Origin: Piscirickettsiaceae bacterium
GTDB lineage: Bacteria; Pseudomonadota; Gammaproteobacteria; Nitrosococcales; Methylophagaceae
Reading direction: 5' to 3'
Assembly: GCA_013215775.1 (NCBI GenBank)
Contig: JABSQO010000001.1
Coordinates: 124,001-188,000 of the forward strand
DNA length: 64,000 bases
Numbering within the stretch: position 1 is the stretch's first letter; every line of letters begins with the position of its first letter. The notes under the pieces were generated by a model, which made no database searches, was not told the DNA's origin, and saw only the letters and a program-made list of their open reading frames with translations. The position numbers and the translations under genes are program-made. This document shows positions 11,703-18,169 of this stretch, piece after piece.

Positions 11703-13265
11703 ATGAACAAAATCCAACGCGCACTTCTTAGTGTGTCAGACAAATCAGGTGTATTAGAGCTCGCTCAACAATTGACCCAACTTGGCGTTGAACTATTATC
11801 AACAGGTGGCACTGCTAAATTATTACAAGATGCGGGTCTACCCGTTAAAGAAGTATCCGAACATACTGGCTTCCCAGAAATGATGGACGGACGAATTAAA
11901 ACCTTACATCCAAAAATTCATGGTGGCTTATTGGGTCGTCGTGGCACAGATGAAGCTATTATGGCCGAACATGATATTGCCCCTATTGATTTAGTAGTGG
12001 TCAATTTATACCCATTCGAGGCAACTATCGTTCGTGATGATTGTACTCTACCTATGGCCATTGAAAATATTGATATTGGTGGCCCGACCATGTTGCGTGC
12101 AGCCGCTAAAAATCATGCTTCTGTTACCGTCTTAATTGATCCATCTGATTACAGCCGAGTAATCGAACAAATGAAAAAATCTGGTGGTGTTGACGATGAA
12201 ACACGCTTTGATTTAGCGGTAAAAACATTTGAACATACTGCTCATTATGATGGTGCAATTGCCAATTATCTCGGTACTATTACTGGTGAGGATAAGGCCA
12301 GTTTTCCACGTACTTTTAATAGTCAGTTCAATAAAGCACAAGATCTCCGCTACGGTGAAAACCCACATCAAAAAGCTGCATTTTATACCGAGAAACAACC
12401 CGAATCAGGCACGATTAGTGCTGCCGTACAACTACAAGGTAAAGAGTTATCCTACAATAACATTGCTGACACGGATGCCGCGTTGGAATGTGTCAAAGCC
12501 TTCCCTGAATCTCCAGCCTGCGTCATTGTTAAACATGCCAATCCATGTGGCGTGGCTACCGCAGATGACTTATTAACAGCATATGACCTAGCCTATCAAA
12601 CAGATACAACATCTGCATTTGGTGGCATCATCGCCTTTAACCGTGAATTAGATGCTGCTACTGCACAAGCCATTATCGACCGTCAATTTGTTGAAGTGAT
12701 CATCGCCCCATCAATCAGTGACGAAGCAAAAGAAGTGGTCAGCAGCAAAAAGAATGTTCGCCTACTTAGTTGTGGTAAGTTACCCAGTCAACAAACTGAA
12801 GGTTTAGACTACAAGCGAGTTACTGGCGGCTTATTAGTGCAAGATCAAGACTCGGGTCAGGTTACAACTGATGATGTCAAAGTGGTCACTAAGAAAACAC
12901 CTACTGATGAACAAATGCAAGACTTATTCTTTGCATGGCGAGTCGCTAAATTTGTTAAATCGAACGCTATTGTCTACGTCAGTAAACAACAAACAATTGG
13001 AATCGGTGCCGGACAAATGAGCCGCGTCGTCAGCAGCCGTATCGCAGGAATCAAGGCTGAAGATGCAGGTTTGACAGTCGCTGGTGCAGTCATGGCTTCA
13101 GATGCCTTCTTCCCATTCCGTGACGGGCTAGATGCTGCTGCTGAAGCTGGGATTAGCGCTGTTATTCAGCCAGGAGGTTCAATGCGTGATGATGAGGTTA
13201 TTGCCGCTGCCGATGAACATGGTATCGCGATGGTATTCACCGGTATGCGACATTTCCGTCACTAA
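11703..13265 (+). CDS. purH: Bifunctional AICAR formyltransferase / IMP cyclohydrolase
   Basis: Catalyses the last two steps of purine synthesis, formylating AICAR and closing the ring to IMP. The N-terminal MGS-like cyclohydrolase domain (about 1-195) shows [17 protein letters not shown] and [16 protein letters not shown]. The larger transformylase domain has [24 protein letters not shown] and the end segment [21 protein letters not shown]. The length of 520 residues is typical (E. coli 529). It is the last conserved gene of the aroQ-to-purH run; the next gene starts 21 bp downstream. Confidence 0.97.
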
Positions 13266-13286: not shown

Positions 13287-15920
13287 ATGGAACAAGAACA
13301 AGTCCTAACGCATTTCCAATCACTTAATCGTACACGGATCGAACGATTAAGTGAGCTAGCGCCCAAACGCCAACGGCGCTTCTTTGATTTGTTGGCATTA
13401 TTATTCCATACCAATGCGACGATTCTAGCGGATCCTTTTAGCGATGAGCCTCCTGCTGGTATTGTTGATTATCGACCGACAAATACCCAATTAGATGCCG
13501 CTAAGAAACTAAAATCCAGTTTCAAGTTTAGGCGGAAAGCCTTAAGTCATTATCCTATTGTTGGCCTATACCTTATTAATGACAATGGCTTATTCAATTA
13601 TCCACAACAAGCAAGCTATGAACTGTGGTTAGTTCATATCTCAGACCTCAATGATACGCAACAGCAAGCCTTAGAGAATAAGCTCTCTGTTATCAGAGCG
13701 TGGGCGAAATCACTCGATATTACCATCACATCTAAACTCTTTTCCAAGGATGCGCTTAATCTACACACTCTTTCCGCCTATGATTTAGATCGTTTTTATC
13801 TCAATGGCTTAGTCATTGCTGGTGCTATTCCATTGTGGTGGCTAATTCCCCCCAATGTTGATTACGACCCTGCACTTATTGATCAGCAATCATTACGCAA
13901 GATCACCACTATTGATTTTGGCGATCTTCCTAAAGCATCGGCAGAAACACTATATAACAATACGGTTGAACTACTTGATTCCAGCCTTCAACAAGGTATG
14001 GAACATCTCGTACCACTCTTGCAGCAACAGCGCTATTTACAGCTATACCCAAACTTATCATGGTTAAGTCACGACTTTAAACAATCCATTTATCAAGATG
14101 AAATTGATCCGCTACAATTAGATTGTATGTCATTGAGACTCAAACAGATCGAGCATTCAAATACTTCCTTTGACTTGGTAGAACTTGTTCAACAGTCATT
14201 TTATCTTCATACCAACGAGCATCTTTCACAGAAGGTTTCCCGCCCTAAACTTCCTTGGCGCCGCCATTTTGTAACTGAATATTGTTCCTCTTGGTCTTGG
14301 AAAAAAGAATCATTTCAAAAACTGGATAAGCGAAATAGGGCTTCTTTTAGACAATGTTTCTCGGAATATCAAAAAACACTGCCTATTTTTGAAAACATCA
14401 GCAAAACGCTAATAACGTTTGCCAAGCAGCAGCAACTCACCATCAATGAACAACATCAACTCATTGATATAAAACTGCAGAGAATGGTTAATAGTGCACC
14501 CGATATCATTCGGTGCTTACCTGTCGGGCTTCTTGCAAAAAGTAATGAAGAACACTTGTACCTCTACCGTTTTGAGGAGGGAGGTGATTGGAAAATCAGT
14601 GATATAACATTGTCATCAAGAGAGCAAGATCCACTTTACCAAGATGCATCTTTATTACGACTACTTGCATGGGCTGTCTGCAATCAAATTTTGACCTCGC
14701 TCACAAGAGTAAGAGTGAGTGATCACTTTGGTGATATATCAATATCAACAGTAAAACCAATCATCAAACAATTACTACAATCACCTCTTTCATCCCCAAT
14801 TTCTATCACAAATAATGACCTACTAAAAGCACCCGATCTGAACCATATCCTGTTATTTATCAATCTCGAACAACAACCCATGGCTCAATTTGATAAGCGA
14901 GGCCTAAAATTGGCCAGTTTACAAAACAATCCCTTGAATTATGCTGATCGCGGTCAAAGTTTAATGATGACTATTGAAGGTTTAGTGTGTTCTAGTTGGG
15001 GGGAGTGGCACAGTATCAGCCATTCTGGCCCAACATCTCCACTAGATATGCTGACAAATCTTATTCATTGGTGGCATCCCCAACATAAGCTCACGACAAT
15101 TAAGTGCTGGTGTCCCGCAGATACTTATGGTGAAACTATTAGCTCTTGTTTAGAAGCCCTCTATAAAGACGTAAACACTCACTACCAAAAAAAACCCCAC
15201 TCTGGTGATTATCTACTCTCAATTGCTGACACATATTACCAATTACAATGGCAAATCGGACTCTGTAGCTATTCTTCTTTAGCAAAGAGCTCTGATGTCT
15301 TCTCTGTTTTAGCTAAAACGAGAACTTCATTTTCGGCTAGCAAAGTCGATGCCCCGCTCGACCCTTCGGGATTGCTATCAACATTACTAACATATCAAAC
15401 TAAATCACAAATATGTCTTTTTCTTCAAACTAATGATCGCAGTCTTTCTCTCTATATTATTGATGAATTCGGTAGCCTATTTCAGCAAGAATTTACTAAT
15501 TTAACCGAATCAACACTCATCGCTAATTTTCATCATTTCCTCGTTATTGTTAAAGACAGAAATAAGCTGAAAAACCTTCGGTTTTTCCGGCTAGCGAATC
15601 GAAAAAAGTGGTTGGTATCGCCTCTTCCGCTACCCAACACATTGGGTAAATCCAATTACCTACCTGTCACGGTTAAAATGGACAATCCTCGAAAAAATGC
15701 TCCTTGTACCATTAAATGCGGTCCTAAACTTTTTTCAGGCGATGCTAATGATCCCGCGTTATTTGGCCAAGTAGCAAAATTAATGCTCACCTTGCGAAAT
15801 TCTAAAAATCGATATCCTCTTTACATCACAGAATTGAACTTTCCACAAAACGTAACCGTAAGGACTAAGGACTATATTACCCAAAAACAGCGGTTGGAAA
15901 ATCTACTGAATGAAGAGTAA
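13287..15920 (+). CDS. Class I adenylate cyclase homologue with lost catalytic motif (probable pseudoenzyme)
   Basis: Homologue of enterobacterial-type adenylate cyclase (CyaA), recognisable over the full length: LSVIRAWAKSLDI, DLDRFYLNGLVIAG followed by LWWLIPPNVDYD, YPNLSWLSHDFKQ, DLVELVQQSFYLHTNEHLS, and a C-terminal LYIIDEFGSLFQQE. The 877-residue length resembles E. coli CyaA (848). The catalytic core is degenerate. Where E. coli has Y-T-M-G102-S103 and S-S113-D114-L-D116-I-W118, this protein has Y-L-I-N98-D99 and Q-A109-S110-Y-E112-L-W114, with exactly equal spacing. The conserved GGEDCGST loop that follows in E. coli is also missing. Cyclase activity is therefore doubtful. The frame is intact over 2.6 kb, so it is not simply a decayed gene. 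It lies 21 bp after purH and before argC. A regulatory or scaffold role is only a guess. Confidence 0.85.
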   Translation: MEQEQVLTHFQSLNRTRIERLSELAPKRQRRFFDLLALLFHTNATILADPFSDEPPAGIVDYRPTNTQLDAAKKLKSSFKFRRKALSHYPIVGLYLINDNGLFNYPQQASYELWLVHISDLNDTQQQALENKLSVIRAWAKSLDITITSKLFSKDALNLHTLSAYDLDRFYLNGLVIAGAIPLWWLIPPNVDYDPALIDQQSLRKITTIDFGDLPKASAETLYNNTVELLDSSLQQGMEHLVPLLQQQRYLQLYPNLSWLSHDFKQSIYQDEIDPLQLDCMSLRLKQIEHSNTSFDLVELVQQSFYLHTNEHLSQKVSRPKLPWRRHFVTEYCSSWSWKKESFQKLDKRNRASFRQCFSEYQKTLPIFENISKTLITFAKQQQLTINEQHQLIDIKLQRMVNSAPDIIRCLPVGLLAKSNEEHLYLYRFEEGGDWKISDITLSSREQDPLYQDASLLRLLAWAVCNQILTSLTRVRVSDHFGDISISTVKPIIKQLLQSPLSSPISITNNDLLKAPDLNHILLFINLEQQPMAQFDKRGLKLASLQNNPLNYADRGQSLMMTIEGLVCSSWGEWHSISHSGPTSPLDMLTNLIHWWHPQHKLTTIKCWCPADTYGETISSCLEALYKDVNTHYQKKPHSGDYLLSIADTYYQLQWQIGLCSYSSLAKSSDVFSVLAKTRTSFSASKVDAPLDPSGLLSTLLTYQTKSQICLFLQTNDRSLSLYIIDEFGSLFQQEFTNLTESTLIANFHHFLVIVKDRNKLKNLRFFRLANRKKWLVSPLPLPNTLGKSNYLPVTVKMDNPRKNAPCTIKCGPKLFSGDANDPALFGQVAKLMLTLRNSKNRYPLYITELNFPQNVTVRTKDYITQKQRLENLLNEE

Positions 15921-15986: not shown

Positions 15987-17015
15987 ATGATTAACGTCGG
16001 CATTGTAGGTGCGACCGGATACACTGGAGTAGAACTTCTCCGTCTTCTGGCAAACCATCCTGAAGTATCACTGCAAATCATTACTTCACGCAGCGAGTCT
16101 GGCAAGGCGGTAAGTGAGTTGTTCCCTAATCTTCGTGGTCATATTGATCTGAATTTTAACGAACCAGATATCGAACAATTATCGGCCTGTGATGTCGTGT
16201 TTTTTGCAACGCCACACTGCGTCGCCATGGCAATGGTACCCGAACTAATCAAACGTGGAACTCGTGTTATCGACTTATCCGCTGATTTCAGATTACAAGA
16301 TGCCACGCAATGGGAGCAGTGGTACAACATGCCACACAGCTGCCCCGAATTACTACCGCAAGCAATATATGGCTTACCCGAAGTAAATAGAGAAGCCATC
16401 AGAAATGCCCAGCTTATAGCTGTCCCTGGCTGTTATCCGACTGCAACCCAGCTTGGTTTCTTACCATTACTAGAGCAAGGTATTATTGATCCGATGCATT
16501 TAATTGCCGATGCTAAATCAGGCGTGAGTGGCGCTGGCCGTAAAGCTAGTATTGGCTCATTATTAGCCGAGTCATCTGAAAACATGACCGCATACGCTGT
16601 GGCAGGTCACCGTCATCTACCTGAAATTGAACAAGGTTTACGTGCTGCCTGCAAGCAAGACGTCAACCTCACTTTTGTGCCGCATTTAACACCAATGATT
16701 CGCGGTATTCATGCCACGCTCTACGGAAAACTAACCAAATCTATTGATTTACAAGCACTGTTTGAGCAACGTTATGCAGATGAACCTTTTGTCGATGTAC
16801 TTCCCGCAGGTTCACACCCTGAAACCCGTAGTGTCCGTGGTTCCAATATCTGCCGAATAGCGATTCATCAACCTCAACAAAGTGATACTGTTGTTGTGCT
16901 ATCTGTCATTGATAATTTAGTTAAAGGGGCCTCTGGTCAAGCCGTCCAGAATATGAATATTATGTTTGGTTTTGATGAATCTCTAGCCATTAATGGCATT
17001 GCGGTTCTTCCTTAA
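15987..17015 (+). CDS. argC: N-acetyl-gamma-glutamyl-phosphate reductase
   Basis: Third step of arginine synthesis, reducing N-acetylglutamyl phosphate to the semialdehyde with NADPH. The nucleotide-binding start [17 protein letters not shown], the catalytic cysteine C149 in [10 protein letters not shown], and [10 protein letters not shown] are present. The length of 342 residues matches the type 1 family (E. coli 334). A ribosome site AGAGAT precedes the ATG. The next gene starts directly after its stop codon, and the argC, coiled-coil protein, bactofilin, erpA order recurs in other gammaproteobacteria. The partner gene argH lies separately in this window at 31.3 kb. Confidence 0.96.
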
Positions 17016-17705
17016 ATGTCATCGCTCGCTAAACATGTTATTCACCAACCGAAGCCATTTCGTTGCTTGATCATTGTCATCGCCAGCATCGTTATTGCAA
17101 CTATTTCAATGTGGCTATATCTGCAAAAAACTACCGGACATTTATCAGCAGCATTACAAAACCTACAACAAAGTCACCAGATACTACAAAGTGATAAGCT
17201 TCAACTTGAAGTATCTCACCAGAATCTTTCCCAAGTTCTAGAAACACAACGGCAAGCTTTCGCCATTCAACAAGCCACAGATCAACAATTACAACAACAG
17301 GTGGCTACGCTTCAAAGCGACATCGTTCATCTCAATACCGAACTCATGTTTTACCAAAATGTGACTCAAGGTACCAGCAGTAGTAAGTTGCAAATTCGTC
17401 AATTGCATCTCCGTGTTAATCATATACAAGAGAATATAATTCATTACCGCCTTGTTATTACTCAAGGTGAAAAAATCAGCAAGCCTATTACAGGGACCGT
17501 TACCTTAGTATTAAATAACTCGAATAGCAGTGATTCCATCACCATTGGTGAACACCCGCTTAGCCTCCGATATGTGCAAGTACTTGAAGGACAAGTAAAA
17601 TTAGCAGACAATGTTATCCCTGCGACGGTAATCGTCACCTTAAAACAAAATAAGAAAAAGTCATTATCGAAAAAATTTGACTGGCAAATCGCTGATGACC
17701 ACTAA
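17016..17705 (+). CDS. Membrane-anchored coiled-coil protein (DUF6776-like)
   Basis: Unknown function. Residues 1-17 are cytoplasmic and basic, residues 18-36 form one membrane anchor, and about 40-112 are a Gln/Leu-rich coiled coil (repeated LQQSHQILQ, LQQQVATLQ patterns). The rest (about 125-229) looks like a small beta-rich periplasmic domain ending with a lysine patch. The layout and the position between argC and a bactofilin gene match the DUF6776 family, assigned here by recall of its genomic neighbourhood. It follows argC with no gap, so translation is probably coupled. An anchor or spacer partner for the neighbouring bactofilin is a reasonable but untested idea. Confidence 0.6.
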   Translation: MSSLAKHVIHQPKPFRCLIIVIASIVIATISMWLYLQKTTGHLSAALQNLQQSHQILQSDKLQLEVSHQNLSQVLETQRQAFAIQQATDQQLQQQVATLQSDIVHLNTELMFYQNVTQGTSSSKLQIRQLHLRVNHIQENIIHYRLVITQGEKISKPITGTVTLVLNNSNSSDSITIGEHPLSLRYVQVLEGQVKLADNVIPATVIVTLKQNKKKSLSKKFDWQIADDH

Positions 17706-17722
17706 AAAATAAAGGTAAGCAT

Positions 17723-18169
17723 ATGTTCAATAAAGGAAAAAATAAAGCAAAATCAACTCGTCTTGACACGCTTATTGGCCAATATACTCATATCAAAGGT
17801 GATATCAGCTTCAGTGGGGGTTTACGCGTTGACGGTAGTATCGCCGGTAATATTAGTGCCGCAGGCGATAATGATTCAGTCCTCACATTAAGTGAACAAG
17901 GTTCCATTGAAGGCGAAGTGAAAGTACCTCACATTATCATTAACGGCTCTATTTCAGGCAATGTTTACGCAACAGAACATGTTGAGCTTGCTCCACAAGC
18001 TAAAGTGCGAGGTAACGTCTATTATCATCTACTTGAGATGGCAATGGGTGCTGAAGTAAATGGGCAACTTATCCGCATGACGGAAAAGAATGACAATATT
18101 CTTGACCTAGACCATGAAATTATCGAAGACGATGACAACGACACATTCCAGCTTGAACAAAAACGCTAA
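17723..18169 (+). CDS. Bactofilin family cytoskeletal protein
   Basis: Bactofilins polymerise without nucleotide into filaments on the inner membrane and organise cell-shape or wall enzymes. The protein has the characteristic core of short right-handed beta-helix repeats (YTHIKGDISFSGGLRVDGSI, SEQGSIEGEV, IINGSISGNVYATEHVEL, PQAKVRGNVYY) from about residue 20 to 120, flanked by a lysine-rich start and a very acidic tail (DLDHEIIEDDDNDTF). The length of 148 residues is typical. It is 17 bp downstream of the coiled-coil membrane protein and upstream of erpA. Its specific role in this organism is not evident from sequence. Confidence 0.9.
   Translation: MFNKGKNKAKSTRLDTLIGQYTHIKGDISFSGGLRVDGSIAGNISAAGDNDSVLTLSEQGSIEGEVKVPHIIINGSISGNVYATEHVELAPQAKVRGNVYYHLLEMAMGAEVNGQLIRMTEKNDNILDLDHEIIEDDDNDTFQLEQKR

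Follow-up and report, generated by a model that had tools for sequence, protein, structure and literature searches.

The cya locus and its domain architecture

The 64,000-nucleotide stretch of Methylophagaceae DNA analysed here (the window) carries, at 13287..15920, an open reading frame of 877 codons with no internal stop, which encodes a full-length but catalytically degenerate homologue of the class I adenylate cyclases (CyaA), hereafter termed pseudo-CyaA. The gene is read from the forward strand, as are its domains and motifs and its two conserved neighbours, purH (11703..13265), which ends 21 bases upstream, and argC (15987..17015), which begins 66 bases downstream. By homology, the protein is a member of the class I adenylate cyclase family: the Pfam profiles Adenyl_cycl_N (residues 4-185; 13296..13841) and Adenylate_cycl (residues 209-762; 13911..15572) match it with 95.4 and 173.2 bits, respectively, against a cut-off of 27, scores that exclude its assignment to another family. 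The intact, full-length frame described in the first-pass annotation of this DNA is thus borne out. The NCBIfam model for class I cyclases (NF006984) likewise spans residues 7-876 (E=2e-126); however, the score of 423.6 bits falls far below the curated equivalog cut-off of 1300, which an intact CyaA from the same order passes with 1446. Pseudo-CyaA shares with E. coli K-12 CyaA a colinear homology over the full length, the two-part architecture and the nucleotidyltransferase (NT) fold, at approximately 20% identity and with a length of 877 versus about 950 residues. Beyond argC, a predicted coiled-coil membrane protein and a bactofilin-like gene occupy positions 17016-18169, ahead of erpA, and are kept at this locus in most relatives.

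Searching the PDB with the pseudo-CyaA sequence yielded neither a relative nor any solved class I cyclase structure. The AlphaFold model is confident (pLDDT 86.8) and preserves the NT fold: residues ~13-380, including the helical region, match the AadA/ANT nucleotidyltransferases with VIA Z scores of up to 10.5, the best match being AadA (Z 10.5, rmsd 5.5, 217 residues). In the model, the N-terminal half therefore has the predicted fold of the Pol-beta nucleotidyltransferase superfamily, to which AadA, ANT and the MNT antitoxins belong. These enzymes retain a GS + DxD catalytic motif, which pseudo-CyaA lacks.

The C-terminal region bears a faint likeness to the ASKHA (actin-like) kinases, in two units (residues ~505-636 and ~691-783, within 14799..15635). 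ASKHA proteins fill the top rows of the structural matches, but with Z scores of 5-6.6 over 72-85 residues, which is within the chance range. When the C-terminal half was refolded alone with 46 sequences (pLDDT 87.3), its best matches were again to the ASKHA group, type III pantothenate kinase among them, with Z never above 6.1. In class I cyclases, the C-terminal half may be a degenerate actin-like fold of two units; given these scores, the likeness is treated as a lead rather than as an established identity.

Loss of the active site in Methylophagaceae and in a second family

In the alignment with E. coli K-12 CyaA, the residues that define the NT active site are replaced. The G102-S103 pair corresponds to N98-D99, within a LIND stretch (residues 96-99; 13572..13583) that takes the place of TMGS, and S113-D114-x-D116 corresponds to A109-S110-x-E112, within ASYELW (residues 109-114; 13611..13628) in place of SDLDIW, where the final tryptophan (W118 in E. 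coli, W114 here) is retained. The E. coli stretch GGEDCGST falls in a 12-residue gap. These correspondences, and the missing loop, agree in every detail with the first-pass annotation. The GS + SDxD motif of functional class I cyclases is therefore missing, and with it, unlike in active CyaA, the GGEDCGST loop and most of the other fixed residues of the NT and helical domains. In contrast, W118, K136, Y187, G195, W200, W464, N498, N557, D761 and E762 are common to pseudo-CyaA, the E. coli enzyme and the intact proteins of the genomes G039 and G040. The Ser and Asp residues are required for catalysis in E. coli CyaA. Since the replaced residues include these, we infer that pseudo-CyaA produces no cAMP.

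The loss extends to the orthologues. CyaA homologues were matched in 48 of 57 Methylophagaceae genomes, and the family alignment comprises 47 sequences from 46 genomes, the broken copies of G003 and G013 being left out. None of the 47 sequences has the GS pair, and aspartate occupies 114 as well as 116 in L009 only, frequencies that make replacement by chance an inadequate account. Position 102 is never glycine (N in 41, H in four, K and S in one each), serine is found at 103 in two sequences and at 113 in one, aspartate at 114 in three, and all 47 have lost the loop bearing G175 and Q178. As a group, the Methylophagaceae proteins have lost D114, the GS pair, E150, the G175/Q178 loop, E185 and R188. 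An acidic residue (E/D) persists at position 116 in 38 of the 47, and W118, K136, Y187, G195 and W200 are nearly invariant.

Outside the family, the site is intact. Relatives from the same order retain MGSSG and SDFD, and GS + SDxD is present in all 23 cyclases sampled from about 20 families other than the two degenerate ones. Adenyl_cycl_N matches were obtained in 116 of 370 genomes sampled from the whole class, with scores of at most 105 bits in Methylophagaceae and the second degenerate family (f123) versus 189-269 elsewhere, the exception being a sub-threshold fragment in G099. Carriers are found in Methylophaga, for example in the cultured species M. sulfidovorans and M. aminisulfidivorans, and in related bacteria, and the order purH-cya-argC is found at every locus long enough to show the neighbours. 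The best explanation is that the active site was lost at the base of Methylophagaceae or earlier. As a consequence for annotation, the name 'class I adenylate cyclase' in Methylophaga genomes is no evidence for cAMP signalling.

The second family, f123, is also gammaproteobacterial and has full-length CyaA homologues in 10 of 41 genomes (G183, G362, G427 and others; loci L118-L120 and L141-L153), with two copies in G443 and possibly in G437; L153 of G443 is a distant second paralogue. As in Methylophagaceae, the frames are open (~870-930 residues), the active site is lost and the C-terminal half is better preserved. GS and SDxD are missing from all 10 N-termini examined. The lesion itself differs, in that six residues spanning the GS turn are absent from all of these f123 N-termini but not from the Methylophagaceae proteins; the distribution is also patchy, and the gene sometimes duplicated.

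Whether both groups descend from one ancient pseudo-cyclase bears on the origin of the loss only. Trees built without the NT columns recover each family as monophyletic and join the two with a support of 98 when L153 is left out. This value drops to 53 when L153 is included, the tree program flags long-branch attraction, and the lesions are not the same. Furthermore, the families belong to different orders, so that one origin would require transfer or deep paralogy. A single ancestor is accordingly a reasonable but less favoured possibility. Two independent lesions were, for their part, not accepted as an established result, since the trees disagree depending on which rows are included and long branches meet.

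Selection, gene loss and the role of the degenerate protein

Selection was estimated by the Nei-Gojobori method on pairs of orthologues ranging from very close to saturated, the pairs L045/L046 and L026/L114 being one comparison and counted once. Within the family, dN/dS lies between 0.085 and 0.21, individual values being rough because silent-site saturation affects some of the pairs; the figure for an intact CyaA pair from the same order is 0.130. Residues 1-210, the dead N-terminal part, have values of 0.06-0.18, never above those of the remainder and often the lowest. The adjacent dusB, purH and argC range from 0.02 to 0.09, and pseudo-cya is 2-7 times higher. The gene thus evolves faster than its housekeeping neighbours but is clearly constrained.

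The constraint is unevenly distributed over the residues that matter in active enzymes. In active cyclases, 111 alignment columns are fixed to 90% or more. Of these, the Methylophagaceae proteins preserve on average 0.79 within the N-terminal extension and 0.69 within the C-terminal part, but 0.41 and 0.31 within the NT and helical domains, respectively; the pattern in f123 is similar. Among the lost columns are the metal and phosphate residues, the helical-domain lysines K253, K260, K264 and K332, and W249. Two attributes of a pseudo-enzyme are present: a loss of catalytic residues common to the orthologues (47 sequences, 46 genomes) and purifying selection after that loss.

Taken together, the clade-wide loss, the fixed locus and the constraint on dN/dS, dead domain included, point to a maintained pseudo-enzyme, albeit a dispensable one. 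We consider it probable that the CyaA of Methylophagaceae is a pseudo-adenylate-cyclase that no longer has its nucleotidyltransferase chemistry and that purifying selection maintains in a non-catalytic role. The first-pass annotation had read the intact frame as a sign of such selection, and this holds insofar as neutral decay can be dismissed for the family at large; the gene is nevertheless dispensable, as is evident from five clean deletions and about five broken copies. In G011, G018, G020, G031 and G060, argC follows purH after 24-185 bases with no remnant in between, and the copies in G003, G007, G008, G013 and G063, as well as that in G014, are broken. Sequencing errors may account for some of them. 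The G063 copy is 98.8-100% identical to an intact one, so that the frameshift either arose recently or is erroneous, and purH is broken as well in G014, which suggests a sequencing error there; frameshifts were for this reason rejected as proof of decay. The G013 copy contains several stops and resembles a genuine pseudogene. In this reduced genome, the CRP orthologue and pseudo-CyaA (contigs C15 and C12) are both apparently broken by frameshifts or stops.

These losses are what would be expected if the gene were a relic disappearing together with cAMP signalling, its constraint being a memory of former function, an avoidance of toxic misfolding or a by-product of its position in a purH/argC operon. 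The association of gene absence with smaller genomes (medians of 1.9 versus 2.7 Mb, p=0.008, uncorrected for relatedness) is in line with such a course. Yet frames of ~870-900 residues stay open in most genomes at identities down to ~32%, dN/dS is low from the closest to the saturated pairs, which a memory could not produce, the dead domain is constrained no less than the remainder, and one of the broken copies, that of G063, is of recent or erroneous origin. As a general state, decay is therefore unlikely, while some lineages may be undergoing it. It is also conceivable that the protein remains an enzyme with a remodelled site, which would still bind a nucleotide and carry out weak cyclisation or some other nucleotidyl transfer. 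The NT fold preserved in the predicted model, the frequent acidic residue at position 116 and the near-invariance of W118, K136, Y187, G195 and W200 would fit this reading. However, the first carboxylate, the glycine-serine pair and the remaining NT residues listed above are all gone, the lysines and the tryptophan of the helical domain are lost too, and the replacements differ among orthologues, which is not how a rebuilt catalytic site would look; on balance, retained enzymatic activity is quite improbable.

For the favoured reading, a maintained pseudo-enzyme, the following course of events is proposed. At the root of Methylophagaceae or earlier, a full-length class I CyaA would have lost its nucleotidyltransferase chemistry, after which purifying selection would have retained the protein as a cytoplasmic sensor or adaptor. 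In E. coli CyaA, the C-terminal half is the regulatory half. The most likely role would be that of a non-catalytic sensor or adaptor acting through this retained C-terminal half, which may respond to a metabolite or a protein, with the dead N-terminal fold serving as a rigid platform or a partner-binding surface. The whole case for sensing is made by the conservation pattern and the analogy with E. coli.

The combination of a dead site and continued selection suggests that the class I cyclase family can work without making cAMP. So far, the function of the C-terminal half of these enzymes has been investigated by way of its influence on cAMP; lineages devoid of the catalytic site separate both roles and reveal which residues the non-catalytic one needs. 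A degenerate class I cyclase was not described in the literature searched, most subscription journals being outside its coverage, so that this pseudo-enzyme branch looks undescribed in those papers, as the first-pass annotation had thought possible.

CRP and other components of the cAMP pathway

The source genome, which is 99.8% complete, was searched for cyclases of class I, class III and the CYTH type. Pseudo-CyaA is its sole cyaA, no second class I cyclase being present, and no class III cyclase was found there or in 55 of the 57 family genomes. One CYTH protein of 211 residues is encoded, with no NCBIfam hit; from its EQEIKL motif it is taken for a triphosphatase-type protein, and a class IV cyclase is also possible. 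The only clear class III cyclase among the 57 genomes is L138 (G033:C8:26484-27008), approximately 10 kb from the CRP gene of that genome (G033:C8:16000-16653), and it may be an acquired replacement.

A CRP orthologue of the CRP/Vfr/Clp type is nonetheless present in the source genome (G000, contig C2; L057:1138-1830, reverse strand), between trpC and an OsmC-family gene. It passes the NCBIfam cut-off for CRP barely (269.2 versus 266), and its identity is 70-76% across most of Methylophagaceae. Given that these genomes have no recognised active cyclase of class I or III, one may ask what this well-conserved regulator senses. In E. coli CRP, the cAMP-contact motif is E...RS...R...TS (PMC4005916). 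The family proteins retain G71, E72 and R82, while the contact position 83 varies (K, G, M, T, A or S) and is serine in 7 of 29 genomes. Serine 83 is found in about 18 of 22 genomes with an intact CyaA, the exceptions being G281, G426, G239 and G361, and in all seven of the f123 pseudo-cyclase genomes checked. As a marker of CyaA status, position 83 was set aside: it has exceptions in both directions, amounts within Methylophagaceae to a tendency uncorrected for relatedness, and is unused here as evidence of lost cAMP binding.

A broader and more speculative proposal is that class I cyclases have a second, cAMP-independent function in the C-terminal half, perhaps as a degenerate actin-like sensor, a function of enough weight for the entire protein to survive the loss of the site, possibly twice independently; in Methylophagaceae, it might act beside a CRP freed from cAMP. 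We regard this as tentative and rather doubtful at present. In G039 and G040, a second CRP-like gene (L092 and L111), encoding 216 residues or more, lies at a distance of ~15-18 kb from the intact cyaA.
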